From NCBI RefSeq assembly GCF_004011695.2, contig NC_082406.1, forward strand, positions 310,001-374,000: DNA of 64,000 bases. Direction: 5' to 3'. The notes under the pieces were generated by a model. That model was not told the origin of the DNA and did no database searches. It worked only from the letters and a program-made list of their open reading frames with translations. Made by a program: the position numbers and the translations under genes. Positions 14,180 to 43,787 of this stretch are shown here, piece after piece; the first letter of the stretch is position 1, and every line of letters begins with the position of its first letter. This DNA is from Ascochyta rabiei. Taxonomy: Eukaryota; Ascomycota; Dothideomycetes; Pleosporales; Didymellaceae.

Positions 14180-15791
14180 ATGCCTTCCTTCTCTAGAGCA
14201 TTTGGCTTAAATAATAGTATAATTAGTAATACTGTATTATTTTAGCCCAGCTTTAGACGTGGTTACTCTGTCTGTCCTGTAATAGCTAATTCTAACTAGG
14301 TTTAGGCATTTATAGCACCTTATAAGGTTAGATAGGGCTTAATACTAATTCTACCTTTACCTAGTAAAAGTTAAACAGAAATCCTCTCTTACCTCTCCCT
14401 TTACCTCTAGGATCTAGGCAGCTGTTTACGCGGCTAAAGCTCTAACTAGGAGGCTAGCAGCATGTAAGCTATCTATACCCCTAGTTTTGTTAGTTACTAC
14501 TACATCCTACTTTAATTTAGTAAGTACTAACCTATTCTGTCTAGCACTTTTGTAAGGATAGCTGAGGGATTTTCTAGGTCTTTCTGGCACGTTCTAAAAC
14601 GTTTTAGCAGATAGCACTGCACAACACGCCTTAGTAACCTTTTTAGACTGTTCCTAACTACTACTACCTACTACTAACTATTACTAACTGTTACTAACTA
14701 CTATTTGCTATAGCTGTTATGTCTATACCTGCTTACTACAAAATTAATATTGCTAAGAATAGTAGGACTGCTAAGTAGTGCTGTATGCTCTATCTCTACT
14801 GTATTACTAATAGTAATGTCTATAGAGACTGTTGTTTGTCTACTAACCTAGCTTTATAGGGTAGCCTGCGTTATAGGGACGCCTAGGCCTAGTATTATAT
14901 AGAATGTTATAATAGTAATAAGAATTGCCTATTCGTACGTGTTTTGTCTCCTTTTAGCTTATTCTAGTATCTTTTAACACGTTTAGGGCCCTAATAAGTA
15001 CGCTAACAGCTATTTAAGGCTTTCTAGCAATATAGCGTGCCTTTACTCTAGTTGTTACCTAGTTACTACTGCTTATACTGCTATTGTTAATACAGCTAGT
15101 GTTAAGACTACCTCTACAACACCTGCTACTACTACACCTATGTCTATTAATAAGAAGACTACAATAGGCAAGTCTATTATTAACTAGTCTAGCTTGTTGC
15201 TAGGTATAATTTAAGAGTATATTCTGTCTCTTTTTAGCTTATTATAGCATAATCTAACCTTTATAGGAACTATTTACTGTAAAAAGACCTACTTACACTC
15301 TATAATAGCAACACTTACGCACGTAAGTTAACCTTATCTAGCATCTATATTAAGAAGTAAGATTAATCTAAGGCTAGCGCTGTTAAGGCTAAGATAAAGC
15401 AAAAGAAGATGTTAGAGGAGAGTAGTAGTAAGTCTAATCTAGACGCGCCTAATACCCCTGCAAGAAGGTATTATAGCACGTTTTAACCTGTTTTAACAAT
15501 ATCTAACTTCTTTTATAGTTAAAGTACTAGATTATAGGTACTAGTAAGACACTTTGTTAGCTCTAAGAGGAGCAGGAGGAGTAGGAAGCTGCTGAGCAGG
15601 CTGCTGCCAACGCTGCTGCTACTGCTGCTGCTAAGAAGCCTTTTAGTTATAAGGCTGCTACTTGTGCCTATAGTAGTAGTTATAGTTAGTAGGTTTTCCT
15701 TATAATAGAAGGTTTAGATTAATAATACCTAAGTTTGTAGTTAGTAGACAGGTTTAGGCTAATATAGCAATTAGGTGCATTACACTCTTAG
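14180..15791 (+). pseudogene. Family A accessory frame, opposite strand to pol (right copy)
   Basis: Same frame as 3214-4805. A possible ATG lies directly after the LTR at 14180 (MPSFSRAFGLNNS). The Cys patch (IECYNSNKNCLFVRV) lies near 14900-14950. Further on come a Thr/Ser-rich stretch (TTSTTPATTTPMSINKK), the Lys/Glu coil (KASAVKAKIKQKKMLEES) near 15370-15420, the EEQ/Ala repeat near 15568-15640 and a final TAG at 15789-15791. More than one frame is needed to link the parts, so frameshifts are present. Unknown function; conservation between two copies on opposite strands supports it as an element gene. Confidence 0.55.
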
Positions 15792-16060: not shown

Positions 16061-18396
16061 TTAGTCTCCCCTTTTTTTAGACTTTAACCTTAATGTCTTA
16101 TTACGCAGTCTAAGCAGTTACTTTATTATTTTCTAGTATTATTTTATCGCTTCTTTAGAAAGATTTGTGCTAATTTCCTAGGAATTTTCTAAGTTAAAGA
16201 ATCTGTCCTACTTAATAAGGTACTCCAACTGTCTGTTAGCTAGTTACATTCTATTCAGGACTTTCTCTACATCCTATATCTTCTCCTCCCCCTTAACTAT
16301 AGTTTCTTATATTTATTCCTATATAGTTAGAAGTTAACTTCTTAGTATGTATAGGTCTAGCAGTAACGCATAGAATACTAGGTAGATTCCTTTTATTCCT
16401 AGCAGGTCTATTCTGTATATACTAGGCCTAATCTAGGCTATAATAGTTCTAGGTCCTAGATGTTTCTAGTCTAGCTTCTTTTTTAGGTGTACTGTCCTAA
16501 TATTCTTACTAGAGACTAGGACATTATTACCTACTTTAAAGGGTGCTAGTAGCTGTTTCCTATCTAAGTATTTCTTTTAATACTTGTCTAACTTTTCTAT
16601 ATTTGTTTTACAGGTAGCCTATAAGGAAATAACTCTAGCAGCTAATTTCTTTATAAGGGGAGATTCTCTACCTTTTAATACTAAAGTAGGCTAACCTGTG
16701 CCTCTTAGATCTATACTGTAACAGGCTTAAAAGGGTGTTATATTTATAGATGCGTAAATGCTATTATTATATACAAATTCTATAGTTAAAATCTATAAGG
16801 CCTAATTATCTTATTCTAGAGTATAGTAGGAATATAAGTACTGTTTAAGAGTCGAATTTTGCCTTTCTCTTTGGCTATCTGTCTAGGGATAATAGGCTAA
16901 CGTTAATACTCTTCTTAAGTTTAAATCGTAGTTAAAGGTTTCTTACGTCTTTAAGTTTATTAACAGCCCCTAATCTAAGATAATCTATGCTGGCGCGCGG
17001 TATAAATAGATAGTTTCTCTAATCTAGGTATATGCTAGATCTTTTCTATCCTAATTAGCCCTGGCTAGTATATAGTGTAATATTTTTATTAATTTATATA
17101 CTACTACTAGTATAGAGTTGTACACTAACCTAGCTATCTTACTAGAGGGTAATTCTGTAATAAAATCTATTATTACGTCCTTCTATAGTTAGCTTAGCAC
17201 TAGTAAAGGTTATAATAACCTGTACAGTTTATGTTAGGCAGCAGTTAATCTCCTACATACTAAGTAGTTGTAGTAGTAGTTAGATATATCCTTAGTAATG
17301 CCCTTCTAGGTATATCTGCGCTAAATCTTCTCTAAGGTCCTTTGTGCTCTAAAGTGTCCTAACATTAGGTTATTATAACATTCTTTAATTACCAAAACCT
17401 TATCTTCTAGCCTTATAAGTAAGATACGCTTCTCCTTACAAATATTTATTTTTCTATGTTATTCTTTTCTATTTTATCGTTATTTAAGTCTTTTTTATTA
17501 CTAGAGAGTTTGTTTATGTTATCTAAGTCTGTTATTAGCTCTATATAACTCTTCTTTCTTAATTCTTCTCTTTTAAGATCTCTTATGCTCTTTCTTTCTT
17601 TTATAGACAAATAAAGGGTTATAGCTACTACTAGGGGAGTATTAAGGTTCCCCCTTGTTAGAATCTCCTAAAGCAGTTATATAAAAGCCTTACTGTACTT
17701 TTATAAGGGGTCTTACACCTCTTTTATGAAGTTAGGACACTGTAAGGGTCTATCTGTAGGGTTTGTAAACTTTAGGTAATAAGTAATTATAAAGTTAAAC
17801 TTAGATAACACTAAGTATGCCCTTACTTACTAATAGTTAAGAACGTTTATCTCTATAAACTATGTTATGTTTTAGTAATCTGTTAAGATCTTAAAGAAGG
17901 TACTGTCTAAGTATCTTTGCTAATGCTGTAGGCTTTAGATAATTGTAAGAAGCTCTTAGTTATAAGTATTATAGTTATACTTAGCTTAAATTAACTTCTT
18001 TAAATAGAAGTCTACAGGCCTCTATTAGGCCAGCTTCCCCTCCCTAGGGACTAGTTAACTGAGGATTCCTAAGATAGCGCCTCTAGAGGCATCTACTTCT
18101 ATCCTAGTCTGTCTCCTAGGTATAAAATAAACTAAGATTAGTATGTTAATAAATAAATCCTTTATATTCTAGAAAGATTATAGGGGTTCTTTACTTAGCT
18201 TAAGAGGCTAACTCTCCTCCTTCCATATTGCTTAACTAGATTTAGCTAAATTTAGCCCTTTCTAGGTTAATTGTGTTAATAGTAAGGCTAATTTAGAAAC
18301 CCCTGTAATAAACCTCTAATAGTAGTTTATAAAGCCTATAAATACTTAGATATTATAAACTATACGCAGGATTAGCTATTCTTAGATTGTTTTAAC
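16061..18396 (-). pseudogene. A-right pol 3' part: RNase H, integrase, chromodomain
   Basis: Inverted equivalent of about 610-2944. The chromodomain-like C terminus lies near 16130-16310, integrase near 16600-17360, and RNase H near 17840-18150 with the Asp-Ala-Ser-Arg box near 18080. The frame is cut at 18396 by the B element and resumes at 25618 in the RT. RIP stops throughout. The left copy (1-2944) can be used position by position to tell which stops are private to each copy. Confidence 0.88.
18392..18396. repeat. Target-site duplication of B (TTAAC), left
   Basis: TTAAC on both sides of the B element (also 25613-25617). The uninterrupted A-left copy near 590-605 reads through the equivalent site. 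Confidence 0.93.
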
Positions 18397-18551
18397 TGTT
18401 ATGGACTAGCCTTAGGGTAGGATGCAATAAGGGGTGATATGGTATTGTATCTCTTATAGAGGTAACACGTCGCGTGTTCGTCTAATATGTCTGTAGGTCA
18501 CGTGACTGTCCTGTCTCGCTTAAGGCATAGACAAGGTCTAAGCCTATAACA
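18397..18551 (-). repeat. B 3' LTR (155 bp)
   Basis: On + it reads TGTTATGGAC to CCTATAACA. It pairs with 25458-25612. It holds an inverted repeat GGCATAGAC/GTCTAAGCC near one end (one mismatch here, perfect in the other copies) that could fold into a short hairpin. Confidence 0.93.
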
Positions 18552-18619
18552 TACCTTCTTTCCTTATCCCTTCTAGGCTGTATATACTTTTATTAGGTCC
18601 TTTTTATATTTAGCGTAGC

Positions 18620-20345
18620 CTAGGGGATGCTAGTAGTAGGTAAACCCTAGGGCTAGTAGTGGTTGCGTAAGGGTCTGGCTCTTAGTAGTTAGCTACTTGT
18701 CTAGTCTGTAGTTTACCTAGGGTAGTCCCTGTACGCACCTAGGTTGTTTTTGTTTTACCTAGCGCACCTACCTAAGTTAGATACTATACTACTCTATACT
18801 CCTACCTAACCTACCTGTAATACACCTACCTAATTTTTTATACGCGCTCTTACCCTACCTACTATATCTGTTATTACCTCTAGTTATAGCCATTAGGCCA
18901 CGGGTTAAGGAGCTAGTAGTCCCTTTAGAGGGGGTAGTTGTAGTCCGCTATAGTCCCTTCCCTCTGCCTATAATATACCCTTAGTATTTCTTATCTATAG
19001 TTTCTAATCTAGTTATAGGGCCTAACTATATATATAGAAAGCTTGCTACTGTTATATAGGCAACTATAAAGTTAAAGGCAACTTAGATAATAAGGACCTA
19101 GTCCCTGTCTCTGCCAGCGCTGTCCTATGCTGCCTCTGCCGCCTCCTTACTATCCTTACTAGCTAGTCTTATAAGTGCCTACGTCTGTTATAGGTCTGCT
19201 TACTTACTAATTTCTTCTATAGCTAACTGCGTTCTAGGTGCTAGTAAGACCTATTATAATTATACTAAGCGTAAGCACGTCTGCGTTTATAATAATAACC
19301 TCTTTACTATAAATGCTAAGCTCTACTATACCTAGTGTAATTTTAAGCAGTATATTAACATACGTGTTTCTGTTCTAGCCCCTTATTCCTAACTAATAGT
19401 AGCTAAGGTGTTAGCACGTGCTGGTAACGCCTATGTTAAGACACCTAGCACCTAGGGTGTAGGTAGTAATAAGGCTAACTAGGGGTGTTAGCCTGTTTTC
19501 TACTGTATGTTACCCCCTTATTACTGCTCTTAGTTTTCCTTTCTAACGTAATATTTTTACTAGGCGCCTACTATAAGCACTAGTAGGTGTATAAGGCTAC
19601 GCTTAACCTAGCCCTAGCTAACCCTACGCTAGTAGAGCAGTTAACCTCTACTTACGCTGCCTATTCCCCCACTAAGCCTAGTACCTAGGTTGCTCTGCCT
19701 GCTATACTGTTGTCTAGGCGTTATAGTAGCAACTAAATAGACGCCTACCTCTAATAGTTTATAGCTGCTGCAGGGTTAGCCTTCTAGTTCTAGACTAAGC
19801 GCATAAACTGTATAGAGGTAGTCTAGGCCTACACTACTATAAGAATTTCTGTCTATGTTAGGTATGTAGCTAACTAGATCTAAAGGACGCTATTAACTAA
19901 GTTAAGCGCCTACTTACTACGCCCTGCTGCAGCCTAGAGTACACCCTATTATCCTGCTTATCCTACTACTACTGCTCTAACTCCCCTAACAAGCGCTGCT
20001 TATCTATCCGCTAGCTCTGCTTACCACCCTACTATTACTGCTCTCCCTCTCCTGCAGAGTTGCCTACGCCCCTATGCTAGTACTACTCTCCCTTCCTTAT
20101 AAGGTCCCCTACACCCCCTTACTATTACTGCTTCCCCTTCCCTATAGAGCTGCGCGCGCCTACCTACTATTACTACTTACCTTCCCCTATAGAGCTGCAC
20201 ACGCCTAACTATAACTTTAAGAAAATATTATAGTTAACACGTAGCAGCACTATTAAGGAAGATATAGAGGGTAGCAATAACAACTATAAGGTTAACTGCT
20301 GCTGCTGCAACATGTAGAACTAGGCCCTAGACATAGCTACTACTA
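18620..20345 (+). pseudogene. Family B accessory frame, opposite strand to pol
   Basis: A decayed + strand frame between the B 3' LTR and the pol end. From about 18870: IAIRPRVKELVVPLEGVVVV, then an Ala/Ser/Leu stretch near 19110-19200. Next is a Cys pattern YNYTKRKHVCVYNNN near 19255-19295, which becomes C-x2-C-x6-C if two Tyr are reverted to Cys (TGT to TAT), followed by LYYTQCNF. After a frame change come a helical-looking middle (ALANPTLVEQLTSTYAAYSP) and a Pro/Ser/Thr-rich tail made of imperfect repeats (19960-20215). Not recognised. The layout matches the accessory frames of families A, C and D. Confidence 0.55.
19960..20215 (+). repeat. Imperfect tandem repeats in the B accessory frame
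   Basis: About 45-65-bp imperfect units containing variants of ACTATTACTGC and CTGCAGAGTTGC / CTATAGAGCTGC recur four or five times. The encoded stretch is rich in Pro, Ser and Thr. Confidence 0.6.
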
Positions 20346-20399
20346 CCTGTTATTCCTTATCTATAAATAATAACATTTTTTTTAAGTCTTAAGGCTTAC

Positions 20400-23300
20400 T
20401 ACTAGTTACTAGGTGGTGTGTATGTAAGGCGGTAGCGTGCTGTTACTATAAGGTCCCTAAGCTCTCCTGCGCTAGGCCTTATGCCCTATACAGTATCTCC
20501 TAATAGGACCCTATAAGGGTTATTATAAATAATAAAAGTTTCTTCTTTCTTATATCTACTTCTTATATGCTGTATATATTACTATAAAGGCCTCTTAGGC
20601 CTTTATATCCTATAACGCTTCTAGTAGTTCCTATATTAGCTTTGTATATCCCTTCTATTTAACTAAGACCTATAACTTATTCTGCCTACAAGCCCTCTTT
20701 TCTTTTAGGATAGACTCTACCTCCTATTTAGCTAGGGTTAGGTTGTCCTCCTCTAGGACAACTAGCGGGCCTAGTCTACTTTCCTGTAGGCGCTGTGTTA
20801 GTAATAGGTTAGAAGCTGTATATTAGTAGGTTTATATATAGTATCTTATAGAGGTTACCTAGCAAATCTAGGGTAACTATTAGAAGGGTAGGAACTGTGA
20901 CTACTGTGTACTAGGCTTGTAACTAGTTAAGCTTCTAGCTTAGCCTATTAGTTTTTATATTATAGAGGGAAAACTAAACCCTATCTCTAACGTAGTACTA
21001 CTCTATAGGCCTACAGCTACAGTATGTTGCGTCCTAGGTGTGTTGTTACACCTATGCTATAGCTGCCTAGGTAAGCTCTATGCCTTACTAGAGGTAGTCT
21101 AGGAAATAGACCACCTGTCCCTGTAGTGTGTTCTAGCTAATAGTTAGTAGCACTGTTGTCTGTAGGAGTTCTATATTATAACTATAGAGGAGCAGGTTAG
21201 AGCTAACCCTAGTAACTAAAGAGTCGCAATTATTAAGTGCTAGTTAGCAGGCTAGAAGATAGTTAGGCTAGTTATCCTGTTTAAAGTTAACTATAACCTG
21301 TAGGACTGCCTACACCTCTTAGTTAGCCTACTCTGTCCCTCTATCTGTCTAGGGGTAGTAGGCTGTAAAAAGGAGCTTGTCTACCCCTATAAGGCTACAC
21401 AATGTTATCTAAAAACGTTCTAGCTAGTCTAAGCTGTAGTCTGTAATAATAGCGCTTAGAAAGCCCTAGAACTGCTACTACATGTTGCAGAAGACCTTAG
21501 CGCAATATTCTGCTGTTATAGAAGTTATTACTTTAAGCTATATATATTTAGAGAGGCAATCTATAATAACTAGGAGATAGCGCAGTGCGTCCTTATTAGC
21601 CTAAGAAAGGTTAACTATAAAGTCTATTAAAATCTAGGACTAAAAACAGTTAGTAATAGGCAATAGCTAGAGTAAGCCCTGCTGTTAGCGCTGCAACACG
21701 TGCGTGCTAAAATAGTAGTAGTTATAGATATAATGCTAAAGTCCTATAAAATCCCTTTCTAGTAGAAGTTGTGTTTAACAATATAGAATATAGTGTTAGC
21801 CCCTAGATAGCCTATTAGGTTAGATTTGTATGCCCTTTAGATTATTGTAGTTGTAAGTAGCTCCTAATATAGAACCTGTGTAACCCTATGCTACAGCAGC
21901 GTGCTATAAGCACTAAGCGTACAATCTGCAATTTACTAAGTAGTCTTAGCCTCTAGAGGGAACTAGCAGGCCCTATTACAGACAGTAGACAGGTGCGCTA
22001 TATGCCCTATATCCTGCTAAACGCCTTTGTTCTATAGTAATTATATATATATATTAATAAAAAGTAGAGGTATACTAGGGCCTAGTGTACTAACTACTAA
22101 TACTAAAACTAGGGTTATTATCCTATAGACCTCCCCTAACCTCCTATTATAGTCCTGTTCCTAGCAGCTCAGCACATCTAGTTAGGCTGCTAGGCGCCCT
22201 AGGCAGAAGCAAAGGTAGAAACAGAACTTTAACAGCTCCTCTGCCTATTAGTACTGCCTCTTACTCAGCGTACGCGCTGTAGTAAAGTACTAGAGGTTCT
22301 TATAGTTAGTTAGGATAGTAAACAGCCTAGCAACAGATCCTAATTTAGCTGCCTAGACCCCTAGGCACTTTATAACAGAAGTTAACTCCTTATTATAGAT
22401 AGTGTAGTTCTGTTATTCTGTTATAAGTATAGTAGAGTAATATACTACTAGGCAAAGCACCTTCCTATACATTTAAGAAAGGTAGCTGCCTAGCGCCTTA
22501 CTAGAGCAGTCTACCTCTAATAGTGTTTCTTACTTAGGGTTCTACTAGGCTAGGACTAGTTCTGTTATAAATGCGTTCTTTAGCTAGCAGAACGCTGCGT
22601 CCGCCTCCTGCCTCTACCTAAACAGGATATCCTTCCCTGTAAGTTAATTAAGTAGGGCAGCAATATTAGAGAAGGCTAGGATAAAGTCCTAGTAGAAGTT
22701 AGTAAACCCTAGGAAACTGTAGACCCTGCGTAAAGACTATAGGGATTCCTAATTACTAATAGCCTTAACCTTCTTAGGATTAGAATAAATATCCTTTCTA
22801 GCTTCTATAATATATCCTAGGTAGTATACTTCCTTTATTACAAATACGCACTTCTTAGGATCTAGATGCAGCCCTGCATCGCATAGGAGCGTAAGGACTC
22901 TGCTAACCTTCCCTAAGTAGTCTGTCCTAGACCTGCTACTATAAATAAGGATATTATCTAGGTACACAGTAGCATAGTTGCCTAATGTCTCCTAAAGCAC
23001 GCTGTTAATGTAACGCTAGAAGGACGCTAGTGCTCTAGCTAGGCTAAACAGGTAGACTAGCTACTTAAAGAGCCTAAAACAGGTGCAGAACGCAGGAAGG
23101 TGCTTATCTCCTTCTGTAACACAAATCTAGTAAAATACTAAACAGATATTAACCTTAGAGAACTAGCAGGCACCCCTTAGTGTACGCAGTGTCTTCTTAA
23201 TAAGAGGAAGCAGGTACTAGTTAGCAATTATAATACTATTAAGTGTGTAATAGTCCACGTATATACGCTACCTACTAGAGGACTTTTTAATTAGTAGAAC

Positions 23301-25416
23301 TAGGGCCCCTGCTAGGGAAGAGGAGGTGCAGATCTACCCCTTATCTATTAGTGCTAACACCTGTTTCTATAGCTTAAGTAGCTAGTCCCTTAGCATGTTA
23401 TACAGAGAGCCCTAGAGTAGAGGCTCTTCCTTTTTAGACTAGTTACGTTGTAACTGTATGTAGTAATCTATCCAGCCCCTATATAGAGAAAGGCTAGAGT
23501 CCTTACTCTTATTAAATAGGTCCTAAAACTAGACTAACTTAGGGGGGAGAGGGCCTACCTCCTCTGCTGTCCCTTGCGCTCCTAGGGATTAAACTAAGAG
23601 GATTTTAGTAATGTTGTAGAGGCTTATAGAGACAAACTAGTCCTTAGGCAGGCGTTTCTAGAGCCTATTAGCTAGAGTCTTAGTAAACTTAGTTACTAAT
23701 AGGAGAGCTACGTAAACGTTTGCTATATACTATAAGAACCCTTATAGACTATAAGGTTCCCTGCCTATTATATCCTTAGTGTGCCCTTTTCTGCATCTAA
23801 TACTACACCCTCTTATTAGAGCTAGAGCTTCCCTAAAATAATATCTTAGGTTAGACCTAGTACTACGTAGGCTACAGCCTATAAGCGCTACCTGTCTAAG
23901 TTATACCTAAATAGGACTAAACAGGAGATTACAGACTTCCTACTAGTGCCTACTACTTACGCTAAGTGTTATAGCAGTACCTTAATAAAGTCTCCTCCTA
24001 AGCGTGTAGTAAATTTATTGCTTACTATACTGAAATATTTACACCCTAAGTCCACTAGCGCGTTAGCCTAAATTACCCTATTAATAAATAATAGAATATG
24101 GAATAGGGGCTTATCTATAGAGTCTGTAATAGCTCCCCTAGTAGCCTATAATGCCCCTATACTAGTAGTCTCCCCTACTAATATACTTCTACAGCGCTGC
24201 TAACTTAGACTTATATCAGGAGTAGCTAGTTTCCCCTATATAAACTAGCCTCTTTCTTACCTAAGATTATTACTACCTATACTGTAGTTACTACTGCGTT
24301 AGCGTAATCCTAGTAAATATGTCCCCCTTTACTGTAACAGGTACATAGGTTAGCCTTCTAGCATTACTAAAATACCTTATTAGGAACCTACGTAGCCTAG
24401 TTAGGAGCAGACTACTTCTAACCCCTACGCTTAGTACTACTGCTAGTACAAACTACAGATATAACTGTTATCTTAACGTTACTATCCTTATTACGCTTAG
24501 GCGGCGCCTAGGTAGAGATGTAGCGTAGCTAGCTTTCTATAGCCATAGTCTTAATGTCTATAGTAATAGACACATACTCTATAACAGCTGCGTTATAATC
24601 TATATAAGTTATATCTTAGTTTATTACTATATAACAGATGTTTACGTTTAGGGCCTAGTAGAGCTTTAATAGGCACTGTTCTCTGTCCTAGTAGAGGCTG
24701 CCACTTTGCACTAGTAGCTGCTTAAACTAGATAAAAAACTCTAAGAATAACTTGTTAGGACCTTAACAGACGCTTTCTAGTTTTGCCTAGGCCTGTTCTT
24801 AGCTGTAGTTGTTGCTGTAGCAGAATTCTAGGTATGCTAGGAAGTCCCCTAGGCTCTATACACCTTAGGTACCCCTAATCTTATAGAATAGAGCTATATC
24901 TTATTATACAGACGTACTAAGCTATAACTATATAAAGGTAACTATATCCTATAGCCTACTAATAAAGGACATGTCTGCCTGCAGCTTATATTCTATTATA
25001 ACCTACTACGCCTTAAATAAGGATTTATCCCTAGTAAAGGCCTTACCTATAGGAAGAGGTTTCCTATAGGCTGTAGATATCTATATAGGGGTATGTAGGC
25101 CTAGGGTAGACGCTAAAAACAGCACTTTATAAGGCAGGTTAAGGGCTAGGGTAGACGTTAATAGGTACAGCGTTACTTCTAAGGAGGATAATAGGACTGT
25201 AGACGCAGGTCTAGTATAGAAGTTAGCTGTTTATGCTAGGGACTCTATAAATACGCGTATATTAGAGTTATTATGTTTAAGTAATACTATACGCTTATTA
25301 GTAGTAGATAAGGCTTACTATAAGTTTGTTATAAATTACAACATCTAGGCTATAAATTCCTAAAGGTTTAAGGAGACAGATTTGTCTAAGAGGTTATTCT
25401 AGGAGCTAGCTAACAT
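20400..25416 (-). pseudogene. Family B gag-pol (Gypsy), RIP-broken
   Basis: Reads right to left from an ATG at 25416, which the copy at 60635 also has. Gag carries a zinc knuckle near 24300-24350 (LCTCYSKGGHIY), with one expected Cys read as Tyr. Protease lies near 23760-24090 (ALVDLGCKYFS). RT runs from about 23420 to 22640 (IYVDYCTLNSI, then VYLDNILIYS, with the active-site Asp read as Asn, then LHLDPKKCVFVIKEVYYLGYI, the best preserved part, and VYSFLGFTNFY). RNase H and integrase follow to about 20500. The exact C-terminal end is not clear. Stops occur at Gln and Trp codons throughout. Confidence 0.85.
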
Positions 25417-25457
25417 AGTATAAGTGCTAGCTGTTCTCCTAGAAAAAGAGATATAAA

Positions 25458-25612
25458 TGTTATAGACTAGCCTTAGGGTAGGATATAATAAGGGTTAATA
25501 TAGTATTATATCTCTTATAGAGGTAACACGTTGCGTGTCCTTCTAATATGTCTGTAGGGCACGTGACTATCCCGTCTCGCTTAAGGCTTAGACAAGGTCT
25601 AAGCCCATAACA
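25458..25612 (-). repeat. B 5' LTR (155 bp)
   Basis: On + it reads TGTTATAGAC to CCCATAACA, the same length as 18397-18551. It has a perfect inverted repeat GGCTTAGAC-AAG-GTCTAAGCC at about 25586-25606. Confidence 0.94.
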
Positions 25613-25617
25613 TTAAC
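25613..25617. repeat. Target-site duplication of B (TTAAC), right
   Basis: Second copy of TTAAC; family A RT sequence resumes here. Confidence 0.93.
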
Positions 25618-28282: not shown

Positions 28283-28484
28283 TGTAAAGAGTGTATAAAG
28301 CAATTATAAATTAGGATATGGTTAAAGAGGATAGCAGGTGTATCAAGGTACGTAGTATATAGTAACAAGACTAATTACTAGAGTATTAGTAATAACCTCT
28401 AACACCTTTATATAGTCTGGGCTGACTAGCCCTATAGTAGCTTGCTAAGACTAACAGAGGTACCCCCGGGCCTAGGGCCTAATA
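28283..28484 (-). repeat. A-right 5' LTR (202 bp)
   Basis: On + it reads TGTAAAGAG to CCTAATA. The terminal CA has become TA, and GCTGGGCC of the left copy is CCTAGGCC here, both fitting RIP. Confidence 0.92.
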
Positions 28485-28633: not shown

Positions 28634-29245
28634 ATGTCCTTATACGCCTGCAATATTTATCTTATAGTAAAAATCTGTTAAGCTAATACACCTACTAAAG
28701 TTCTCTATAATTATTATTTCTTTAGCAGCTATAAGTACTATATTATACTAGGTAGTCTAAAAGGTCTCAAGTATACTAAGTGTATAAAGGCTAGTAAGCT
28801 ATATATAAATATGTCTTAGGCTTTATTAGATAAGACTTGTAAGGAGTATAAGAAAAAGGTAGAGGTAGACAAGTTACTTCTTATAACTGTAATTGCGTAA
28901 TAATTACGTAATAAGAAAATTCTAAAATAGGTAGATAAACGCGCATAGCAAAAGGCGCTATATTTAGCAAATAGAATAGTTAAGGCTAGCAAGTTAGACC
29001 TAGCTAAGGAAGTTAATTCTAACTGTTCTGCAGCGTCTATTAGCATATATGCCTTGCTAGCTACCTAGAGTACTCTTAGTTTAATTAAAGACTCTGTAGC
29101 GAATTATAGTACTTGCGTACTAATTAGCAGCAGCTTATAAGGTGCCTAGGTAGTTCCTATATGTTTTCTAGGTCTAGGTATCCTAACTATTTAACTAGAT
29201 ACCTTTAGTGGTTTCTATTTCCCTTATTTATTACTATTCTTTTAA
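28634..29245 (+). pseudogene. Family C accessory frame, opposite strand to pol (C1 copy)
   Basis: A single 204-codon frame from ATG 28634 to TAA 29245, broken only by TAA/TAG that replace Gln or Trp. Residues 46-56 read KYTKCIKASKL and are followed by Y. The sister copy reads KYAKCIKASKLC, giving C-x2-C-x6-C if the first Tyr is reverted. Next comes an acidic/basic helix (LDKTCKEYKKKVEVDKLL), a Lys-rich helix (RNKKILK, then VDKRA, QKALYLANRI) and a hydrophobic C terminus (VVPICFLGLGILT, then FPYLLLFF). The ATG lies 135 bases before the Cys motif in both copies. This is the cleanest of the opposite-strand accessory frames in the window. Family not recognised; DNA or RNA binding is only suggested by the Cys and Lys pattern. 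The - strand open frame at 28816-29046 is its shadow. Confidence 0.62.
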
Positions 29246-31095: not shown

Positions 31096-31707
31096 ATGTT
31101 CTTACACACCTACAACATCTATCTTATATTAGAAATCTGTTAAGCTAATACACCTGCTAAAGTCCTCTATAATTATTGTTTCTTTAGCAGCTATAAGTGC
31201 TATATTATGCTAGGTAGTCTAAAAGGTCTAAAGTATGCTAAGTGTATAAAGGCTAGCAAGCTATGTATAAACATGTCTTAGGTATTATTAGATAATACTT
31301 ATAAAAAGTATAAGAAAAATAGAGAAGTAGATAAGTTACTCTTTATAACTATAATTATGCAATTGTTGCGTAATAAGAAAATCCTAAAATAGGCAAATAA
31401 GCGTGCGCAGTAAAAGGCGCTATGTTTAGCAAATAGAATAGTTAAAGCTAGTAAGTTAGACCTATCTAAGGAAGTAAATTCTAACTGTTCTGCAGCGTCT
31501 ATTGGCATATATGCCTTACAAGCTACGTAGGTGCTCTTAGTTTAATTAAAGAGTCTATAGTAAATTATAGTACTTATATACTAATTAGCAGCAGCTAATA
31601 AGGTGTATAGGTAGTTCCTATATATTTTCTAAGTCTAGGTATCCTAACTATTTAACTAGGTACCTTTGTTAATTGCTATTTCGCTTTTATATTACTATTT
31701 TTTTAAC
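31096..31707 (+). pseudogene. Family C accessory frame (C2 copy)
   Basis: Parallel to 28634-29245. ATG at 31096 (MFLHTYNIYLILEIC), then KYAKCIKASKLCINMS from 31231, then LDNTYKKYKKNREVDKLL and RNKKILK. One base is missing near 31530 relative to C1 (CTACGTAGG versus CTACCTAGAG), so the frame shifts before the hydrophobic C terminus. Two of the three motif Cys are kept and the first is Tyr. The - strand frame at 31299-31508 is a shadow. Confidence 0.58.
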
Positions 31708-34700
31708 TTCCTATTTATCTTTACTATTAGCTTAGTAATAGAAGGTCTTCTAGATAGGCGTTCTAGAGTTAGCTAGTTCTAATAGTAATATGTAGAACAC
31801 TAGATAGATCTATACATCCTTTAGTATATTAAGTCTATAGTTAATAAGGTTTAACTACTTTAAAATAAAAAAGGGTCTAACTTTAACGCAGTCTAGTTTT
31901 TTTGTTAGTCTTTATATGCAAAGGTTTTTTATAAGGAGATAGCCTTTATCCCCCACTTTTAGCTAAGAAGCTGTTCTTCTTTTCTAGTTAACATATAAGA
32001 TTACTTGTTCTTAAGCCTTACTAATTTTTTCTTATGCTTTCTTATGCACTTCCTTTAGTCGTACTACTAAGGATATTACTAATTTAGTCTAAATTAGTGT
32101 GTCCAGGCTTCTAGTAAAGAGATTTAGGTCCATTCTGTAATTTAGGAAGAACAGTAATTCTCCTGTTACTTCTAACAATTTGTTGTTATATGTAATTTAT
32201 GCTATAGGTAACAGTAAAACCTAGTTATCTTACTACTAGTTACTGTATATCTGTAGGTATGTTTCTATAGTCTAATTTGTTCTTTTAGTCTATCTATCTG
32301 TCTGCAGATAATAGGCTGTTTAAAGCTTCTTCTTAGTACTAATAGCTGCTAAGAGCGTAGTCTTATAATTTAATATAAAGAGCTTGTCTTAATTACTAAT
32401 AGTTAATTTTAGTATGCTATAATGCCTTATATGTTAATCTAGAAACACTTCTATAAGCTACTCTACATTATAACTATATTAAAACAGTATTATTTTAGCG
32501 TACTTAGTAAATTTATTAAGTATAATAAAGATTAAGTTTAGTTGTATCTAGTTATAGGGTCTCTTAAGATAGGTAGCTGTGTAATAAAGTCTATTGTAAT
32601 ATTTGTCTATAGCGCTATTAGTGGCTCTATTGCCTGCATTTCTCTGTATTTTACAGGTGTACTTTGTTGATTTTACCAACAGTTAATATAGTTCTCAATA
32701 TATTTAGTAACCTTATCCTTTATATTGCTAAACTTATAGTATTAATTAATAAGTTCTGTTATGTGTATAATTCGAAAGTGTCTGTATAACAGGGTATTAT
32801 AGTAATTAGCTATAATTCTGTCCTAAAGTTCCTCTAGTACGTCTGATATAATATGCTATTTGTTTTTAATTTGCATTATATTGTTTAGTTACTACAATAG
32901 TCTAAGTAACCTAGTATTGTTAATTCCTAGTACTGCAAACTAGTGTATTGCCTTTTCTCTAGTAAGGTTATGTTATCTGCTAAGGGCGTTAGCTCTACTA
33001 TTATCTTTGCCTAGCGTAAATAATATCTTAAATTTGTATTACCTAAGTATCTTAGACTAACATACCTGTTATTAATTGAAGACCTTAGTAGTAGTAAAGT
33101 ATACTAGGTTCTTATAGTTCGTGTAGATAATAAGTTCTAAGCAGCTTTCTATATATAGTTACTAATATTCTAGGGCTAATATAATTGCAAGTAATTCTTT
33201 ATTGTGTATATTATAGCGTTCTTTAGGTCCTAAGAACTTATATAAGTAGTAAGTAATAGGGTGCTATAGTCTATCCTTTTCTTATATAATATATGCGCCT
33301 AATGCAAGATCTAAGGCATTAGTCTCTATGCGTATTGGTTTGCTACTATAAAATATAATTTACATAGGAGGTATAAGATAGGCTGAAATAAGTGCCTTAA
33401 ATATTTTATTTGGTTCTTATCTCTCCCTAAATAGTGTATCCTTCTACGTAAGCATTGTTAGCAGGATTATAATCTTAGAGTGGTCCTTAATAAAGCGTTA
33501 GTTAAAGTTAACAAATCCTAAGAATTTCCAGATCTGTTTAACTATTTTTAGCGTCTGCTAAGTCTTAACTACTTCTACCTTTATTAGACTAATCTTAACT
33601 CTATATTAAACTACAATGTACCCTAGGAATTTAACCTCCTCCTTATACTATTTACACTTCTTAGGTTTAGGTTATAGGACTGCCTGCCTTAGGCATTCTA
33701 GCACTTCTGTAACATGTTATTTATGCTCTTCTAATATCTTTAAGTACACTAGGATATTGTCTAGGTACGCTACTACAGTTTAGTTAAGGTGTGCTCTTAG
33801 GACGTTGTTAATTAACTCCTAGCATGTTGCTAGTGCGTTTGTTAGACTAAATAGCATAACTAGGTACTTATAGAGTCTATATTGCATCCTAAATACTAAT
33901 TTTTTCTTTCTTTCTTTATATGTATAAGGTTATACGCGCCTTATAGGTCTAACACTGTAAAGTACTAAGCTCCTACTAGCTAGTTCTATAACTTTGTAAT
34001 ATTTAGGAGCAGGTAGTAGTTTTTAATAGTAATTTTATTAAGCTTCCTAAAGTTAATGTAAGGTTATAGCTTGCTATCCTTCTTAGGAACAAACAATATT
34101 AGGTACCCTGCAGGTAATTCTAATCTTCTAATAAATCCCTTTTTAATGTTTTTCTTAATGTACTTATAAAGTACTTTAACTTCCTTTTCTAATAACTAGT
34201 ATAATAGCCTAAAAGTTAGTGTCTTTCCTTCCTAGAGCTTAATCTTATAATCCTAGGGTTTATGCTTAGGTAGGGCTTTTGCTATAAGCTTTTTTCTAAA
34301 TATCTCTGCGTACTGTCTATACATGTTAGGGATAGCAGAAGGTATACTCTTCTCCTCCTTAACTCTTACTTTGTAATCTGTAGGGCGTTTAGCATCTATA
34401 GAGTTAACTACTCTATCTTAGCACATCTTATATGTTAAAGAGACATTATTAATCTCCTTCTTATCTACTAGCTACTGCGTGTGCTGGGTAGGCGTAGATA
34501 TATTAGTACTACATTTATATCCTTCTAATAAAAGTCTTTCTTATACCTAGTCTATCTTTAGGTTGTGCTTTTATAACTAGGGAAGTTCTAATATAATATT
34601 GTGCGTGGCCTTTATAAAGACGTCTAGGTTTATTTCCTTATAGTGCCTCTATATCTATAGGGGTGCCGCTATTACTTTAAGTATAATTCGCAGTTTATCT

Positions 34701-36425
34701 AGCATTAATTCTCTATTAGCTACTTAAAGTAAGTTAGGGTTCTCCTTATAATATAATTTAAGTCTAGCTTACTATATTACTATTTTAGATATATAACTTA
34801 CTTATACTCCTAAGTCTAAGAGTGCTATTTAGGCTATCCTATTTAGATTAATAGGTAGCTTAATAAGGTGATTGTTCCTAATGCTATTAATAGATTAATC
34901 CCTAGGGCTCGTAGGCGCTAGCCGAAAAAAGTTTCCCTCTTTACTAAACCCTTTAAACTCCTTAGAACTATAATGCTCCTTATAATCAGCGTTAAGGCAG
35001 TTCTGCTAGCGTGTGTTATAGCAACTTCTATTAACTACTAGCTATATTTATATTATAGCCTGTAGATTATCTATTTTAGGAAAGTATACTCTCTAGTGTT
35101 TATTAATAAGATAAGGTTTATATAGGTTATTGTAACACTAGTACTATTAACTGCAACAGAGGCTTTGCTGTGCTAGGAACTATCCTGCGCTAAGCTTCTT
35201 ATTATAGTAGATTATACATTTATCTTTAGTGCATACTGTCTATATAAGGTTTCTATATTTTAGGTTTTAGTAGTCTAGAATATACTGTAGTTATAGGCTA
35301 ATTATTAGTAGTGCTTCTTTCTACTTCTACATACGTTCTAGGCTAAGCTATATTTCTTACTTACACTAAAGCTAGTCTTGAGCTTCTTCTAGGTTATTAG
35401 TAAACTGTTTGCTATTATTAATTTCTTTTCTAAACTAGTAAACAAGCTGTTAGAGTTCTAGTGTTATTTCTGTAATTTTAGGTACTCCTACAGGACTAAC
35501 AAGTTCCTAATACATTTAGTATTAGGCTTCTTTATTATTACGCTTCTAGTATTATTAAGCTATATGTTCTTGTTTGCGTGTTAGTAGGGCGCTAATTTAG
35601 TTAAACTCTTGCCCTAAGGTGTCTAGTAGCTTGTTTATCTTTTGCTGGTTGTTATTAGAGTAGTACTCTGTTTCTTTGCCTGTCTAGGCGTTCTAGTAGG
35701 GTGTTGCTACACAAATTAGAGGTACAATACAGTTGTTATCGTCCTCTAGACTAGACTCTAGGTCTTCTAGCAGTTATTCTATATTATTAGTAAGAATTTC
35801 TTATTTACTAGCATCTGTATTATTATAATTACAGGTAAGTACATTTAACTAGTAGTAAACCTTGTTTATCTAGCAGTCTCTAGCAAAGTAGCCTAGTTTG
35901 CCACAGTTGTAGCAGTCCCTGCTACCTCTGTGTTAGTTACCCCCCTTAGGCTTCTTGTTCTATTGCTTTAGTAGTCCCCTGTTAAGGTTTAAGAGGTCTA
36001 TTGCTTTAGGTTTGTAGTACCTACTCTAAGTGTTGCTGTAGATATAATAACTAGTATTTAGCTAATTACAGCCTCCTTACTAACCTTAGTTTAAGTTATT
36101 GCGCTACTAGTTCCTTAGTAGCAGCCTGTTAGTAGCAATAACAGTAGTACATGCTCTAGAATTATCTTAAAGTTCTTACTAAAGTTTGTAGAGCTATACG
36201 TTAATGTTAATAGCAGTATTAATAAGCTTATTAAGGGATTCTGTGCTTGCGCTAGTGCGCATAAGTTCTTCCTTAACCTTAGGCTTTAATCCTTATTAAA
36301 ACATAGTAATTAGGGCAGTGTTGTCCTAGTTAGTGTTAGTAGTAAGCTGCTAAAACTCTGCAGTGTAGTTAGTAGCTAACTTATCCTATTGAATCTTCTA
36401 AATGTTGTATTAAGCAATGTGTAGT
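31708..36425 (-). pseudogene. C2 pol and gag C-terminal part (Gypsy)
   Basis: Read right to left, a recognisable Gypsy polyprotein. Gag C terminus near 36200-36300 reads KPKVKEELMRTSASTESLN. The zinc knuckle at 35873-35914 reads CYNCGKLGYFARDC, with the expected His read as Tyr. Protease follows near 34750-34900 (IALLDLGVQVSYIS). RT runs from about 34250 to 33560 (QPYINFRKLNKITIKN, FTVLDLQGAYNLI, and YLDNIL at 33753-33767, where YLDD is expected). RNase H is near 33350-33100 (IRIETNALDLALGAYI) and integrase down to about 31750. The frame is fairly readable but full of RIP stops. The gag is interrupted by the D element after 36425. Confidence 0.88.
36421..36425. repeat. Target-site duplication of D (GTAGT), left
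   Basis: GTAGT also at 43788-43792, directly after the right LTR. Confidence 0.93.
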
Positions 36426-36678
36426 TGTAACAGAGCTTAGAGGACTATACTTAGGTAATTGATTAATTTAATTAGTGTCTATATATTTGATGTGTAACGT
36501 GTTACTTAAGTATAAAGGAAATTTAGTTATTATGTAATCTTGCTTACTTAAGCTTTGTAGGCGACCCTTAGGAGCTTGGTGGTTAATTGTAGAGAAAGGA
36601 GCCACTCAACAATAATCTGCAAGCTTAATTAGATAGGGGAGCACCCTATTAGTCATCTACAGGCTCAGCTGCGCAACA
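36426..36678 (-). repeat. D 3' LTR (253 bp)
   Basis: TGTAACAGAGC to CGCAACA on +. It differs from the partner LTR by about 20 changes, all transitions that I can see. Confidence 0.95.
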
Positions 36679-36692
36679 CACCCCCTAGGTAA
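36679..36692 (-). other. D polypurine tract
   Basis: On - the sequence next to the 3' LTR reads CTAGGGGGTG, purine-rich, as expected for the plus-strand primer. Confidence 0.55.
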
Positions 36693-37170: not shown

Positions 37171-38315
37171 ATGCTTCTTTATTGTTTTACTAGGTTTACG
37201 TTTCCTCTGTAGTTGTAATAGCTTAGGGGAGCGTCTATTTAAGCTTTCTGTCTTTGTTTACTAGCTCTTTTAAGTAGTTTTATTAGCTTTAGCACTTTCT
37301 ATAGCCTTAAAGGCTTTTTTAGACAGCATCTGTTTAAGCTTCCTAGCCTTGTTTTACTAGGTCTTTTTAGAGGTTTTGCTACCTTTGGCCTATAGAGAGA
37401 ACCTAAATTTAAGCACCTTACGCGCACTGCCGCCGCTACTGCCGCCTGAGCTGCTGCCTGTGCCGCCAGCGGCTCTGCCGCGCCTGTGCCTATACCCACA
37501 ACCACAACTATAACCACAACCACAACTACAACCACGCCTAAGCCTGCGCCTGCAGCTTTAGCTGCTCCTTCTGCTGCTGCTGCTGCTACTGCTACTGCTG
37601 CTGCCCTTACCGCCGCCGCCTATGCAGCCTCGCTGCCGCCGCCGCTACCTCGCGCGCTGCCCGCGCCCCCCCCACCAGCTCGCAACCCGTTACAGGGCGC
37701 TCGCAGGATCATTTCCTACAAGCGCTGCGTTAACGTGCTTATAGTAAACAGTTTAGTGCCTATATGCGTTAATTATGTTAGTAGGCAGGAAAGGCGCTAC
37801 TAGTGTTATACCTAAGGGCATTTATGCCACCCCCTATAGGTTTTGTTTAAATAGCGCTTATAAATAGTAGTCTAACAGCTTGTTTAGCAACATCTGCCTT
37901 AAGCCCTTTAGGATTAAGCTAGTTAATAAGCTTATTTACTTAGGTAGAGTAATAACTTCTGTAAGCAATTATAACTTGTTATTTTTTATTAGCTAACAAG
38001 CTTATAGCAGGCAACTAATCTGCGCTGCGCTCTCTGCGTGGTGAAGGGCCTAATCAAGGATAGGTACTTCTTCTGATTACCCTCCTTAGTCAGGTCAGGT
38101 TTTAGAGCTGCTAGATACCTATAGGGAGGGGGCTGTCCTTCCTATATATAGTTTAAAGAATTTACTAAGCCCTATAGCTGTTAGTTAAGCGCTTAAAAGA
38201 GCTGCCACCGGTAGTTACAGGTGCTCTTTTGCCTATTTAGGGAGGGGGTTGTCCTCCCTAGCAATACCACAATCTTCTGCCTCTCCCTTAACCTGCTCTT
38301 TTTCTATGTAATTAA
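37171..38315 (+). pseudogene. Family D accessory frame, opposite strand to pol
   Basis: An unusually long frame, open from an ATG at 37171 except for stops at presumed Gln/Arg codons (TAA, TAG, one TGA). Order: Leu/Phe-rich start, a basic segment (REPKFKHLTRT), an Ala-rich stretch, a Thr run (PIPTTTTITTTTTTTTPKP), a long Ala/Pro stretch (37540-37680), then a Cys patch near 37710-37820: ISYKRCVNVLIVNSLVPIC, followed by RYxCYTQGHLC, which fits C-x2-C-x5-C. A less clear tail overlaps the pol end near 38230. The middle is clean for about 300 bp (37486-37803). Not recognised. The mirrored poly-Val frame on - (37299-37535) is a shadow. Confidence 0.6.
37430..37700 (+). other. GC-rich low-complexity island in element D
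   Basis: GCC/GCT and ACAACC repeats, many intact CpG and CpA, and a C8 run near 37668-37675. Much more GC-rich than the rest of the window. It encodes the Ala/Pro/Thr stretch of the accessory frame. Confidence 0.85.
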
Positions 38316-41300
38316 TACTAAACAGGTTTAGGTGTAAGACAAAGCGCTTGTGAGCCTGTCTAGGGAGCGCTTTTATAAGACTGTTGGCTGGCATCTCGCT
38401 CGTTTTAAGGTACGTTACCTGGAGATTTCCCCTAGCGTACTCTTGTTTTAACTACATATTCTAGATATCTACATAGCACAGCCAAGTAGTAAGCCGCTTG
38501 CTCTCTTCTACTACTAATTAGATTGTTTGTTAGTTGTTGCAGAAAATCTCCTACAGCACCCCTAAGTCTAGCTAAAGTTCGTGTAGAAACTGTTTAAGAG
38601 CTGCTGCTTCCTTAGCCACATGCTCTAACGCTAACAACTCAGCTTTAGTAGTTGAAGTTGTTACTGTTAATTAACGTGCTGCTTTCTAGATAATTAGACC
38701 ACTAAAGAGCTGCACAATATACCCCTGAGAGGAGCATCTAGTCTCCTAATTGTTAGCAAATAACGCGTCCCTACAGATAAGTAATTAGCTGCCTTAGTAA
38801 GCTCTGTACTATATCCCTAGGTGCTTTGTTTAATAGAGGTAAGCTATAACCTAAGCTGCTGCCTTAAAGTAAGCAGCTCCTGGATTTATAAGATAATAGG
38901 ACAGCTGAGAGGCGGCATACGCTATATCTAGTTAGATCATAATTGCTGTGTAGAGGATAGATCCCACCTGCTCTTAAAACGCTTTAACTTCTTGCTTTAA
39001 AGCTTGCCTGTTATACTTAAGTAGCTCTTCTATTAGGAAGGGGACTATTAGGAAGGATCCCTTCTCTACTACTCTAAATTTGGTAGCAAGCTTGTTAATA
39101 TAGGCGTCGTGCGCAAATATAATAGTTCTAGCAGTTCTGTCGCAGATAATACGTACTCCTAGAAACCATTCAGCAGCTCTATAGTCTTCTATCTAGTATT
39201 TAGCCATTAATAAGCTTATAAGATGCTTTATAGTAGCTTAATTGTCCTTATAATAGGCTAGCAGAATATTGTCTATATAGAACAGTAGCACTATCTAGCG
39301 TTCAGCGTTATAGAACAAGCAAGGTTCCTCTTTTAACGCAATTAGGCCAAGCTTCTAGAGAGTGGCTAAGAGCTCTTTATACTATAGAACTGGCAAATTA
39401 TATAACCTATATAGAGCCTGTAGAAGTAGGACTACCTTCTTAGGTTTTGTAAAGCTATCTGGCAGCTCACAGAGCACTTAGGGTTGGTCCTGGCGGCTCG
39501 CGTTAAGAAACGCGCCTGCAACGTTATACTAATAGAGCTCCAGGTTAAACTAGGCAGCTATTACCACTATGGTGCAAAAAGACCTAGAGGCGAGCGTTGT
39601 AGCGTAGGTTAAGACAATTAAATCCTTAGCCTGTAGATCTCTGCGTACACAGATCCTTACCTTATATTTAAGGAAGTAACTATCTTAATCTAGCTTATAT
39701 GTAAAGACCTATTTAAGCAGCAGAGGCCTAGCTAAGGCGCTCGCTCGGTCTATTTCTTTCTAGGTTCTCTTTTCTATAAGTGTGGCTATCTCTTTCTTAC
39801 AAGCCTGGCAAAATAGAGCTCCTAGTAGGTAGTAGGCGAGATCCTTCTATTTCTTTAGTAAAGGTGGGAGCTTGTTACAGTGCGTGCGCTGCTCTAAAGG
39901 GATTTTTTCCTTCTTTAAGACAGACGCCGCAAGCACCGCGTAGATAGTGACAAGCTCTCTTCTACTTATGCTATATTTGTTTGCATGTTCAAATAGTAGG
40001 TAGATAAGCCAGAAGTACCTGTGCTTTCTTATAGAGTTTATTACTAAGTACTGTCCTGCTCTATCCTTATAATTATTAGCAGGTTTATTACGCTTACAGT
40101 TATCTATCTGGCGGCTCTGCCTTGTGGCTAGACCCTAGACTCTCCGTTAATACAAGCGTCTTGTTACTGCCTTATCTGCTCCTGTTGTCCTTTAAGAAGG
40201 TATTAGAACAATTAGTAATACAGGTCTTAGTAGATCTTCTTCCTTAAGATCCTTATTATCTACTGGCGCGCTCCCTTCCTGATTAGGTAAGTGCACTTCC
40301 TGTAAGCCGTCAGTTAGATTCTCCTCTTTAGGAGCTTCCCCGCCTAAGGCCAGTGGCTCTGGCTTAGGCGTTAGGTTAGGGGATAAGAGGCCTGTTTCTT
40401 GGTGTCGTTCTGCACAGATCTCCAGCGGCTTGCTGGCCAAGCTTGCTGCGCGTACAGTCTCTGTCTCAGGAGCTCCTTTGTTACTAGACTAGCTATCTAG
40501 CAATTAAGATTGCTCCCAAGTGTTACCCCTAAGCTGATGCTTAGAGGACTTGCTAAGCGTCAGGTCTCTGTTAGGGAGCTTAATTACTTCTCCTGCGTTT
40601 GTAATCTCGCCAGGTTTATAGAGGATTTCTACTACTACCTCTGCTTCTTTAGCGCTTATAGTAGTAGATTTATCTGCTCTATTATAAAAGAGCTTCTTAT
40701 TAAAGGTTATATTGCGCGTTGTTATAACCTAGTTAATTATAGGGACCTATATCTAATAGATGTTAGATACTTAGTACCCTACAAGGTAGCTAATATGCCC
40801 CCTTAGAGTGACTTTAAAGCCCCTCCAATTACGCCTAGCTGCTTGTTCCTTATTTAAGGGGTAGGCTTAGCAGCCGTAGGCGTAAATCCCGCTCTAATCA
40901 GGTCTTAGATCTGCTATTGCTACCCTTACCTGCTCTAGCTTATACTATCAGAAATACTAAGTAAACTAGAGATTAAGCTTCTTATTTAGGCTCTATAGCT
41001 TGTGTGCGTGTAATAGGCTTATGTTATAGAGCTATGCCGCCGCTACAACAATCTCTGGCCAGAGCTTCTAGGGTAGATTTGCTCCGCTCCTTATCTTGAT
41101 AGATTTTGTAATTATCTCTTAACTAGCTCTTTCTGCTTCTCTATTTGGCTTGTGTGTGTATAGAGGAGAGGGATCTATATCTATTCTCTAATTAAGCGCC
41201 CAGCGCTTATATGCTAAGCTCCCTTTCTACAGGAGTGTTACTGTGTTATTATCTTAGCTAATTTTGCAGATTTAGAGCTTATACTAGGTACGTACCTAGC

Positions 41301-42156
41301 TTATAAAGTTTGTAAGGACCTATAAGATCTCTAGTTATATTTTACCTTATAAAGTAAACATAAAGAGCTTCCTACTATAGTACTCCTTAATTACAAGCGT
41401 CTATAATTCGCCTCCCCTGCCTAACAGCATATTAAACAGGTCCCAGCCAACTCTCTAAAACAGCTGTGCTGGTCTCTCTCTCTTTCTCTGTAATATTACT
41501 TGCTTAGCGTAGGTTGTTAAGCAAATCTTACAATCTTTTTAGAGCGTCCCGTTAATACGCACGCCGCGCGCCTTTGTTACTAGCGCTTAAAGAGCCTCTA
41601 GGCCTAGATAACCAGCTCAGGCGTGCCACAGCTGTTCAGGCAAGCTGCGTGGGTAAAATTCATAGGATTGCTTTGTTGTTACTGCGTTAAGGATAGAAGG
41701 ATAGAGAGAAAGTAGCTTATATTTAAGGAAAGTAAGGTTATAAGCGTGCTTAAGAGTAGCACATACAACGCTCCTATTAAGATCTTTAATATATCCCACA
41801 CAAAGAGAGCTGTCTAGACCTAGATACCAGACTTCTTTCTCTTAGAGGCAAGCTTCTAAGATTATATTAATATAGAATCCTTCTACAACTATAATATTCT
41901 AAAGAAGCAGGTTCTTAGTATATAGGCTGCGCTTTCTGTATAGAGCGTTCTTAAATAAGTAAGCTCCTTGTCCAGATATAGGGAGCGCCTGGGTACCTGC
42001 TTCTACCGTGTCAGTGGGCCCAGCAGGGCAGAAAGATCCAGGTACCAGCCAATTGGCGCTGTTAACTAGGTGCGTAGCAGCTCTATTGTCTAAAATAGTA
42101 CTATCTGTTAATAGATAAGCGTTAAAATCCATAAGGTTATATACCCTAGATCCCAC
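38230..42156 (-). pseudogene. D pol: protease, integrase, RT, RNase H (Copia)
   Basis: Protease region from about 42156, with the active-site area read as ILDNRAATHLVNS (residues 21-33 of that open stretch). Integrase zinc-finger region near 41800-41500. Integrase core and C-terminal part near 41240-40970 (IDIDPSPLYTHKPNREAER, then SGANLP..LWPEIVVAAA). A Glu/Pro-rich linker is open at 40440-40192 (LSPNLTPKPEPLALGGEAPK). RT is near 39900-39150 with FYIDNILLAYYKDN at about 39245-39285 (YVDD read as YIDN), then the WFLGVRI box. RNase H follows near 38900-38400. It ends near 38230, overlapping the accessory frame. Fewer stops than in E or F, but still dead. Confidence 0.88.
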
Positions 42157-43534: not shown

Positions 43535-43787
43535 TGTAACAGAGCTTAGAGGACTATACTTAGGTAATTAATTAATTTAGTTAGTGTCTATATATTTAAT
43601 ATATAATATGTTACTTAAGTATAAAGGAAATTTAGTTATTATGTAATCTTGCTTACTTAAGCTTTGTAGGCGACCCTTAGGAGCTCGGTGGTTAATTGTG
43701 GAGAAAGGAGCCACTCAATAATAATCCGCAAGCTCGATTAGATAGGGGAGCACCCCATTGGTCATCCACAGGCTCGGCTGCGCGACA
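43535..43787 (-). repeat. D 5' LTR (253 bp)
   Basis: TGTAACAGAGC to CGCGACA on +. It retains CpG and CpA where the 3' LTR has CpA and TpA (GCTCGAT versus GCTTAAT). Confidence 0.95.

Follow-up and report, generated by a model that had tools for sequence, protein, structure and literature searches.

Antisense accessory genes between pol and the 3' long terminal repeat of Gypsy and Copia retrotransposons in Ascochyta rabiei

Introduction

Antisense genes situated between pol and the 3' long terminal repeat (LTR) have been described for Boty of Botrytis and Sclerotinia and for the plant elements Grande, RIRE2, Retand and PvRetro13 (PMC7264820). In Retand, 97% of the clusters hold the antisense gene TRP28, for which DNA binding is predicted (PMC11963269), and in fungi the gene brtn is attributed to Boty-like LTR retrotransposons (Zhao, 2011, as cited in PMC8365987, PMC7264820, PMC4227169, and PMC5987419). 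The function of such antisense accessory genes is stated to be unknown in two of these papers (PMC7264820; PMC11963269). Here we analyze a stretch of 64,000 nucleotides of the ascomycete Ascochyta rabiei (the window; positions 310001-374000 of NC_082406.1, contig C2 in our numbering), in which four retrotransposon families, A, B, C, and D, carry decayed frames at the same site. An original prediction had proposed that these frames represent one accessory gene family that unrelated retrotransposons captured or exchanged, perhaps encoding a nucleic-acid-binding regulator or a counter-defence factor, and it had named brtn as a precedent, which indeed exists in the literature. Copies were searched for in the whole genome (40.9 Mb, 23 contigs). 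We report that the frames of families C and D are real protein genes lying opposite to gag-pol, that family B probably carries a coding frame, and that the protein of family C looks like a zinc-cluster protein.

Antisense genes of families C and D

Pfam domains place pol on the minus strand in all four families, with RVT_1 and RNase H (Gypsy) in A, B, and C and RVT_2 (Copia) in D, and the flagged frames read along the plus strand, next to the low-coordinate (3') LTR; they are therefore antisense, in the interval from pol to the 3' LTR, as had been predicted. The elements are heavily mutated by repeat-induced point mutation (RIP), with TA/AT values of 1.9-3.0 across nine measured stretches; a threshold of 0.89 has been used for this index (PMC8365987). 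The features of the two families are as follows.

28634..29140, plus strand: C1 antisense accessory gene, 168 codons and stop, interrupted by internal stops (copies, homologues)
31096..31602, plus strand: C2 antisense accessory gene; frame lost past about codon 146, end placed by analogy with C1
30512..30995, no strand: C LTR-like repeat adjoining the C2 accessory gene, probably on the 3' LTR side judging from other copies (self-comparison)
31708..36098, minus strand: C2 pol region (RVT_1, RNase H), Gypsy (Pfam)
37417..37836, plus strand: D antisense gene, first piece, Ala/Pro-rich part followed by Cys cluster; start not fixed
37898..37960, plus strand: D antisense gene, second piece, approximate, in another frame, placed by analogy with copy L074
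37961..38007, plus strand: D intron-like stretch of the antisense strand, GTAAGC ... CTAAC ... TATAG
38008..38076, plus strand: D antisense gene, third piece and stop, approximate
38316..43398, minus strand: D gag-pol region (RVT_2), Copia (Pfam)
36426..36678, no strand: D LTR, 3' side (self-comparison)
43535..43787, no strand: D LTR, 5' side (self-comparison)

The family C gene is a real protein gene on the strand opposite to gag-pol. Its stop at codon 169 is present in all 28 aligned copies (TAA in 27, TAG in one); the gene predicted at 28634-29245 proved real but ends at 29140. All 119 matches of the frame in its own genome contain stops of the RIP type, and 77 relatives were found among public proteins at E ≤ 0.01, the best at 2.5e-76; the organisms named among them are three, all Pleosporales, one each from three families. 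Comparison of the copies with each other was less telling: the codon test was weak (transversion columns with at least two copies of each base 4/4/11 over the three codon positions, p 0.08; any transversion 12/30/30), and the six-frame amino-acid similarity of close copies did not single out the true frame (3.09 vs. 3.04-3.35 elsewhere).

The family D gene, too, proved real; like that of C it is situated between pol and the 3' LTR and encodes a protein antisense to gag-pol. Of seven copies read, three have a GC (guanine plus cytosine) content of 0.53-0.58, and one Cys frame stands out in these; a profile was built from six of the copies. Scored against the 7994 candidate proteins sharing most words with it, this profile retrieved a single protein, P0078 (215 amino acids), at E 1.7e-10. 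P0078 consists of an Ala/Pro-rich N-terminal part, the motif C-x2-C-x12-C-x12-C-x2-C-x5-C and a tail; with 12 residues between the second and third Cys the motif is outside the Zn2Cys6 (PF00172) spacing, Pfam returned no DUF3716 (PF12511) match for P0078, and its predicted fold was not used (predicted local distance difference test, pLDDT, 54.2). Aligned with copy L074, P0078 is matched in three segments that are collinear but each in a frame of its own (residues 118-169, 173-193, and 190-214; 60, 67, and 56% identical; E 3e-23), which bears out the accessory gene predicted for family D. P0078 has 23 own-genome matches at E ≤ 1, 21 of them at E ≤ 1.2e-6 and all where D DNA also matches; the remaining two are weak and outside D-like places. 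For both C and D a chance opening is excluded, because intact homologues exist.

The second gap between P0078 and L074 is edged by GTAAGC and an AG, and the same stretch is found in the window at 37961-38007. Over the seven copies its 5' end reads GTAAG in four and ATAAG in three, CTAAC precedes the AG in three and CTAAT in four, and the AG is kept in all seven; the altered splice-site bases are those that RIP would be expected to produce. By reading of the alignments, P0078 and the D protein align gap-free when the downstream AG is used. No fitting GT-AG pair was found at the first gap.

A kinship of D with loci encoding DUF3716 was also considered, owing to 16 short D-DNA matches (68-100 bases, 77-82%) beside them, and was dropped since these matches consist of low-complexity sequence and the locus that was read resembles a Helitron. 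This GC-rich locus (L073, C4:972500-976500), in which a DUF3716 gene of some 215 amino acids comes after the end of a Pif1-type helicase, would, as the single locus of its type that was read, represent a Helitron-like or subtelomeric element; similar loci occur, e.g., at C8:62437 and C1:3255467. DUF3716 has 20 strong matches in the genome, 19 of them stop-free, and several are no more than about 120 kb from the end of a contig.

A predicted zinc-cluster-like architecture of the C protein

Among the 77 relatives of the C protein, 40 longer ones (155-213 amino acids) were aligned. Near the protein start C-x2-C-x6-C occurs twice, and the pattern C-x2-C-x6-C-x(8-12)-C-x2-C-x6-C fits 39 of the 40. 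Zn2Cys6 clusters (PF00172) have the spacing range C-x2-C-x6-C-x(5-12)-C-x2-C-x(6-8)-C, within which 39 of the 40 homologues fall. The predicted structure (mean pLDDT 79.9) shows a helix at each CxxC pair and a long helix spanning residues 62-117. Searched with this model, Foldseek gave two matches in all, both weak and both to Pho7 Zn2Cys6 complexes, and all 10 matches listed by VIA-align were Zn2Cys6 factors, GAL4 superposing at 1.6 Å over 34 residues. The predicted layout looks like a Zn2Cys6 cluster followed by a coiled coil, and the nucleic-acid-binding regulator suggested by the original prediction is plausible for C from this modelled architecture alone.

Family membership by sequence was less clear. 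Pfam Zn_clus matched three of nine scanned homologues, at best with 17.2 bits, i.e., under the 21-bit cut-off. In GAL4 the loop between the second and third Cys contains basic residues; in 39 C homologues this loop has none in 18, one in 17, and two in four, and falls short of the GAL4 type. DUF3716 (PF12511) matched one of the nine (P0050) with 17.9 bits, under its 22-bit cut-off, a sequence search of the PDB gave a single match at E 0.54, and searches by phage tblastn, in viral contigs and in NCBIfam gave no lead. Weak Pfam matches to Bunya_G1, C2-set, DUF72, TTC3/DZIP3, DUF3439, and others were judged to be chance.

Frames of families B and A

The frames of the two remaining families are listed with the B gag-pol region.

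19120..19518, plus strand (likely): B antisense frame with one C-x2-C-x6-C and basic residues; coding signature
20346..25250, minus strand: B gag-pol region (RVT_1, RNase H), Gypsy (Pfam)
14713..15168, plus strand: A2 Cys-containing frame, candidate only (protein search, codon test)
3838..4269, minus strand: A1 copy of the A2 Cys frame, candidate only (protein search)

The B frame was chosen by stops and Cys ahead of the codon tests. It has 136 genome matches, down to 43% identity, and is kept in copies of three subfamilies. Transversions were used for the codon test because RIP does not make them, and they accumulate at the third codon position (positions 1/2/3: 9/7/23 with at least three copies on each side, p 0.003; 21/13/29 with any copy, p 0.048), as do the near-fixed differences between subfamilies (B1-B3 7/6/17, B2-B3 6/6/16, B1-B2 1/0/4). 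Two of the six frames have their third position at this excess: minus 1, with a mean stop of 0.128, and the proposed frame on the plus strand, with 0.058; the frame minus 0 is slightly more open (0.046) but lacks the excess. By BLOSUM62 scores between subfamilies the proposed frame ranks top of six in all three comparisons (2.53 vs. ≤2.17, 3.64 vs. 3.35, 2.66 vs. 2.32), which supports it weakly because the same measure fails to pick the true frame of C. Between-subfamily identity is slightly higher in minus 1 than in the proposed frame. Against an antisense gene in B, the codon-usage model has its maximum for the region (8.3) in a minus frame, and the subfamilies were collected by protein search in the proposed frame; the same model calls no plus frame of A, B, or D coding. 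We consider it probable that B carries a coding frame, as predicted, and the antisense strand likely. B-type frames form at least three subfamilies of differing frame length (149, 153, and 102/160).

The accessory gene predicted for family A was not confirmed. Its Cys frame has 145 genome matches and more stops than another plus frame (mean stop 0.088 vs. 0.031), its transversions by codon position (5/4/4) show no codon signature, and no homologue was found at E ≤ 10 among 2702 candidates. The A frame is accordingly unproven as a gene.

Relationship between the families

The prediction of a Cys patch C-x2-C-x5/6-C in all four families agrees with C, where C-x2-C-x6-C occurs twice, with D, where P0078 has C-x2-C-x5-C, and with B, which has one C-x2-C-x6-C. 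Mutual similarity was tested for C against A, B, and D and for D against A and B. The C homologues gave at best 5.7% probability against frames from 21 copies of A and 20 of B, this match being on the A sense strand, with the C positive control at 100%; the D profile gave at most 0.6% against the A, B, and C frames and the C homologues, in a run without positive control. Since kinship is undetectable both for C with A, B, or D and for D with A or B, a captured gene family shared by A-D, the central proposal of the original prediction, is not supported by these comparisons, and a separate acquisition of look-alike proteins appears to fit better. Undetected similarity would be no proof of separate origin, but it leaves sharing unsupported. 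As regards relatives of the frames in A, B, C, and D, the further claim that families E, F, and G have no such gene agrees with the search of the rest of the window, which found none; an unrelated gene may be present there.

Nesting of the elements in the window

Self-comparison of the window delimits the elements by the following LTRs.

18393..18552, no strand: B LTR, 3' side (self-comparison)
25454..25613, no strand: B LTR, 5' side (self-comparison)
13978..14177, no strand: A2 LTR, 3' side (self-comparison)
28283..28482, no strand: A2 LTR, 5' side (self-comparison)

A2 (13978-28482) encloses B (18393-25613) and itself appears to be inserted in a C element, because the C LTR-like repeat has a match at 13846-13977 and C resumes at 28483. 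D (36426-43787, LTR of 253 bases) is within or beside element copy C2. Further copies of the C LTR-like repeat are at 44177-44657 and 58797-59283, the former of which is possibly the 5' LTR of a C2 that has D nested in it. The stretch 7155-13846 is made up of two units in tandem, each about 3.37 kb long and sharing 91% identity, which are 65-67% similar to parts of 45299-48075. Gypsy element G (49628-58321), with pol on the plus strand, is situated between 162-base repeats (44906-45067 and 58546-58707), and between 50 and 58 kb the GC skew takes values from -0.2 to -0.28.

Discussion

We give about even chances to the reading that C and D, and probably B, carry separately acquired, look-alike antisense genes and that the C protein regulates its own element; this estimate rests on C and D. 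Each gene would be expressed from a separate antisense transcript, because splicing of the D intron is possible on the antisense strand only; retrotransposition would leave this intron in place, since the genomic RNA represents the opposite strand. The small C protein, with its Zn2Cys6-like cluster, would dimerize via the long helix and have a nuclear role, acting on nucleic acid or chromatin and most likely tuning transcription or integration of its own element, as has been suggested for the aORF-3R proteins of plants. Each family would have acquired its look-alike gene separately.

That the C protein is instead a replication or packaging cofactor, nucleocapsid-like or serving nuclear import or integration targeting, seems unlikely to us but deserves serious attention: the few basic residues in the loop between the second and third Cys, the weak Zn_clus scores and plant precedents that include nuclear proteins (PMC7264820) speak for such a role, whereas the Zn2Cys6-type Cys layout, with the long helix predicted immediately behind it, is reminiscent of dimeric zinc-cluster factors. 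A role for the antisense RNA itself, which would pair with genomic RNA and regulate or silence the element, is discussed for plant antisense frames in PMC7264820; it needs no protein conservation, whereas the C homologues, with named members in three Pleosporales families, are conserved in protein sequence and keep near-invariant Cys, and we regard this role as rather improbable. Less credible still is a single accessory gene family that arose by one capture and then spread over unrelated Gypsy and Copia elements. Place and strand agree with it, as do the C-x2-C-x5/6-C motifs of C and D and the one in B, but the similarity searches described above detected nothing shared, and the order of parts differs, the Cys cluster being near the start in C and after the Ala/Pro-rich part in D. 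Chance openings in RIP-mutated, AT-rich DNA account well for A, whose frame is not the most open one and has neither codon signature nor homologue; for C and D they are excluded by the intact homologues and for B they are unlikely, which makes them a very poor explanation of the frames as a whole.

Comparison with known systems

Antisense genes at this site are already known as a kind, and within the literature searched the zinc-cluster-like variant looks new, as do the spread over Gypsy and Copia elements of one genome and the antisense intron; searches aimed at a retrotransposon-encoded Zn2Cys6 gene found no paper. With somewhat less than even chances, Gypsy and Copia elements of one fungal lineage may have independently gained small, partly intron-containing antisense Cys-cluster genes as their own zinc-cluster-type regulators, keeping sense and antisense programmes apart on one provirus. 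The many intact small homologues of C and its specific predicted architecture make zinc and DNA binding directly testable, and the D intron would reveal antisense expression from the genome sequence, independently of RNA data, and could help to find such genes elsewhere.

Compared by description only, brtn of Botrytis Boty is similar in being an extra gene antisense to gag-pol of a fungal Gypsy element; here, however, there are at least two genes without detectable mutual similarity, one of them in a Copia element. The plant aORF-3R genes (Retand TRP28, Grande gene23, RIRE2, PvRetro13) share the site before the 3' LTR and the antisense direction, and their products are proposed to be DNA-binding or nuclear (PMC7264820; PMC11963269), whereas TRP28 has a different domain (PF04195), to which no Pfam match was found here. 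The site between pol and the 3' LTR, typical of aORF-3R genes and brtn, is that of the C and D genes and also of the A and B frames; coding opposite to gag-pol applies to C and D and probably to B. LTR elements of bdelloid rotifers resemble the present case in that diverse retroelements within a single genome carry accessory genes, but their open reading frame (ORF) types, such as ORF3, are common to classes, while no sharing is detectable here, and the abstract does not call them antisense (PMC5408684). The fungal Zn2Cys6 factors (PF00172; GAL4, PUT3, HAP1, LEU3, PPR1, and Pho7) and C have the same Cys spacing and, in the predicted structure of C, the same short CxxC helices and following long helix; C differs by scores under the Pfam cut-off, a first loop poor in basic residues and its small size (155-213 amino acids in the 40 aligned homologues).
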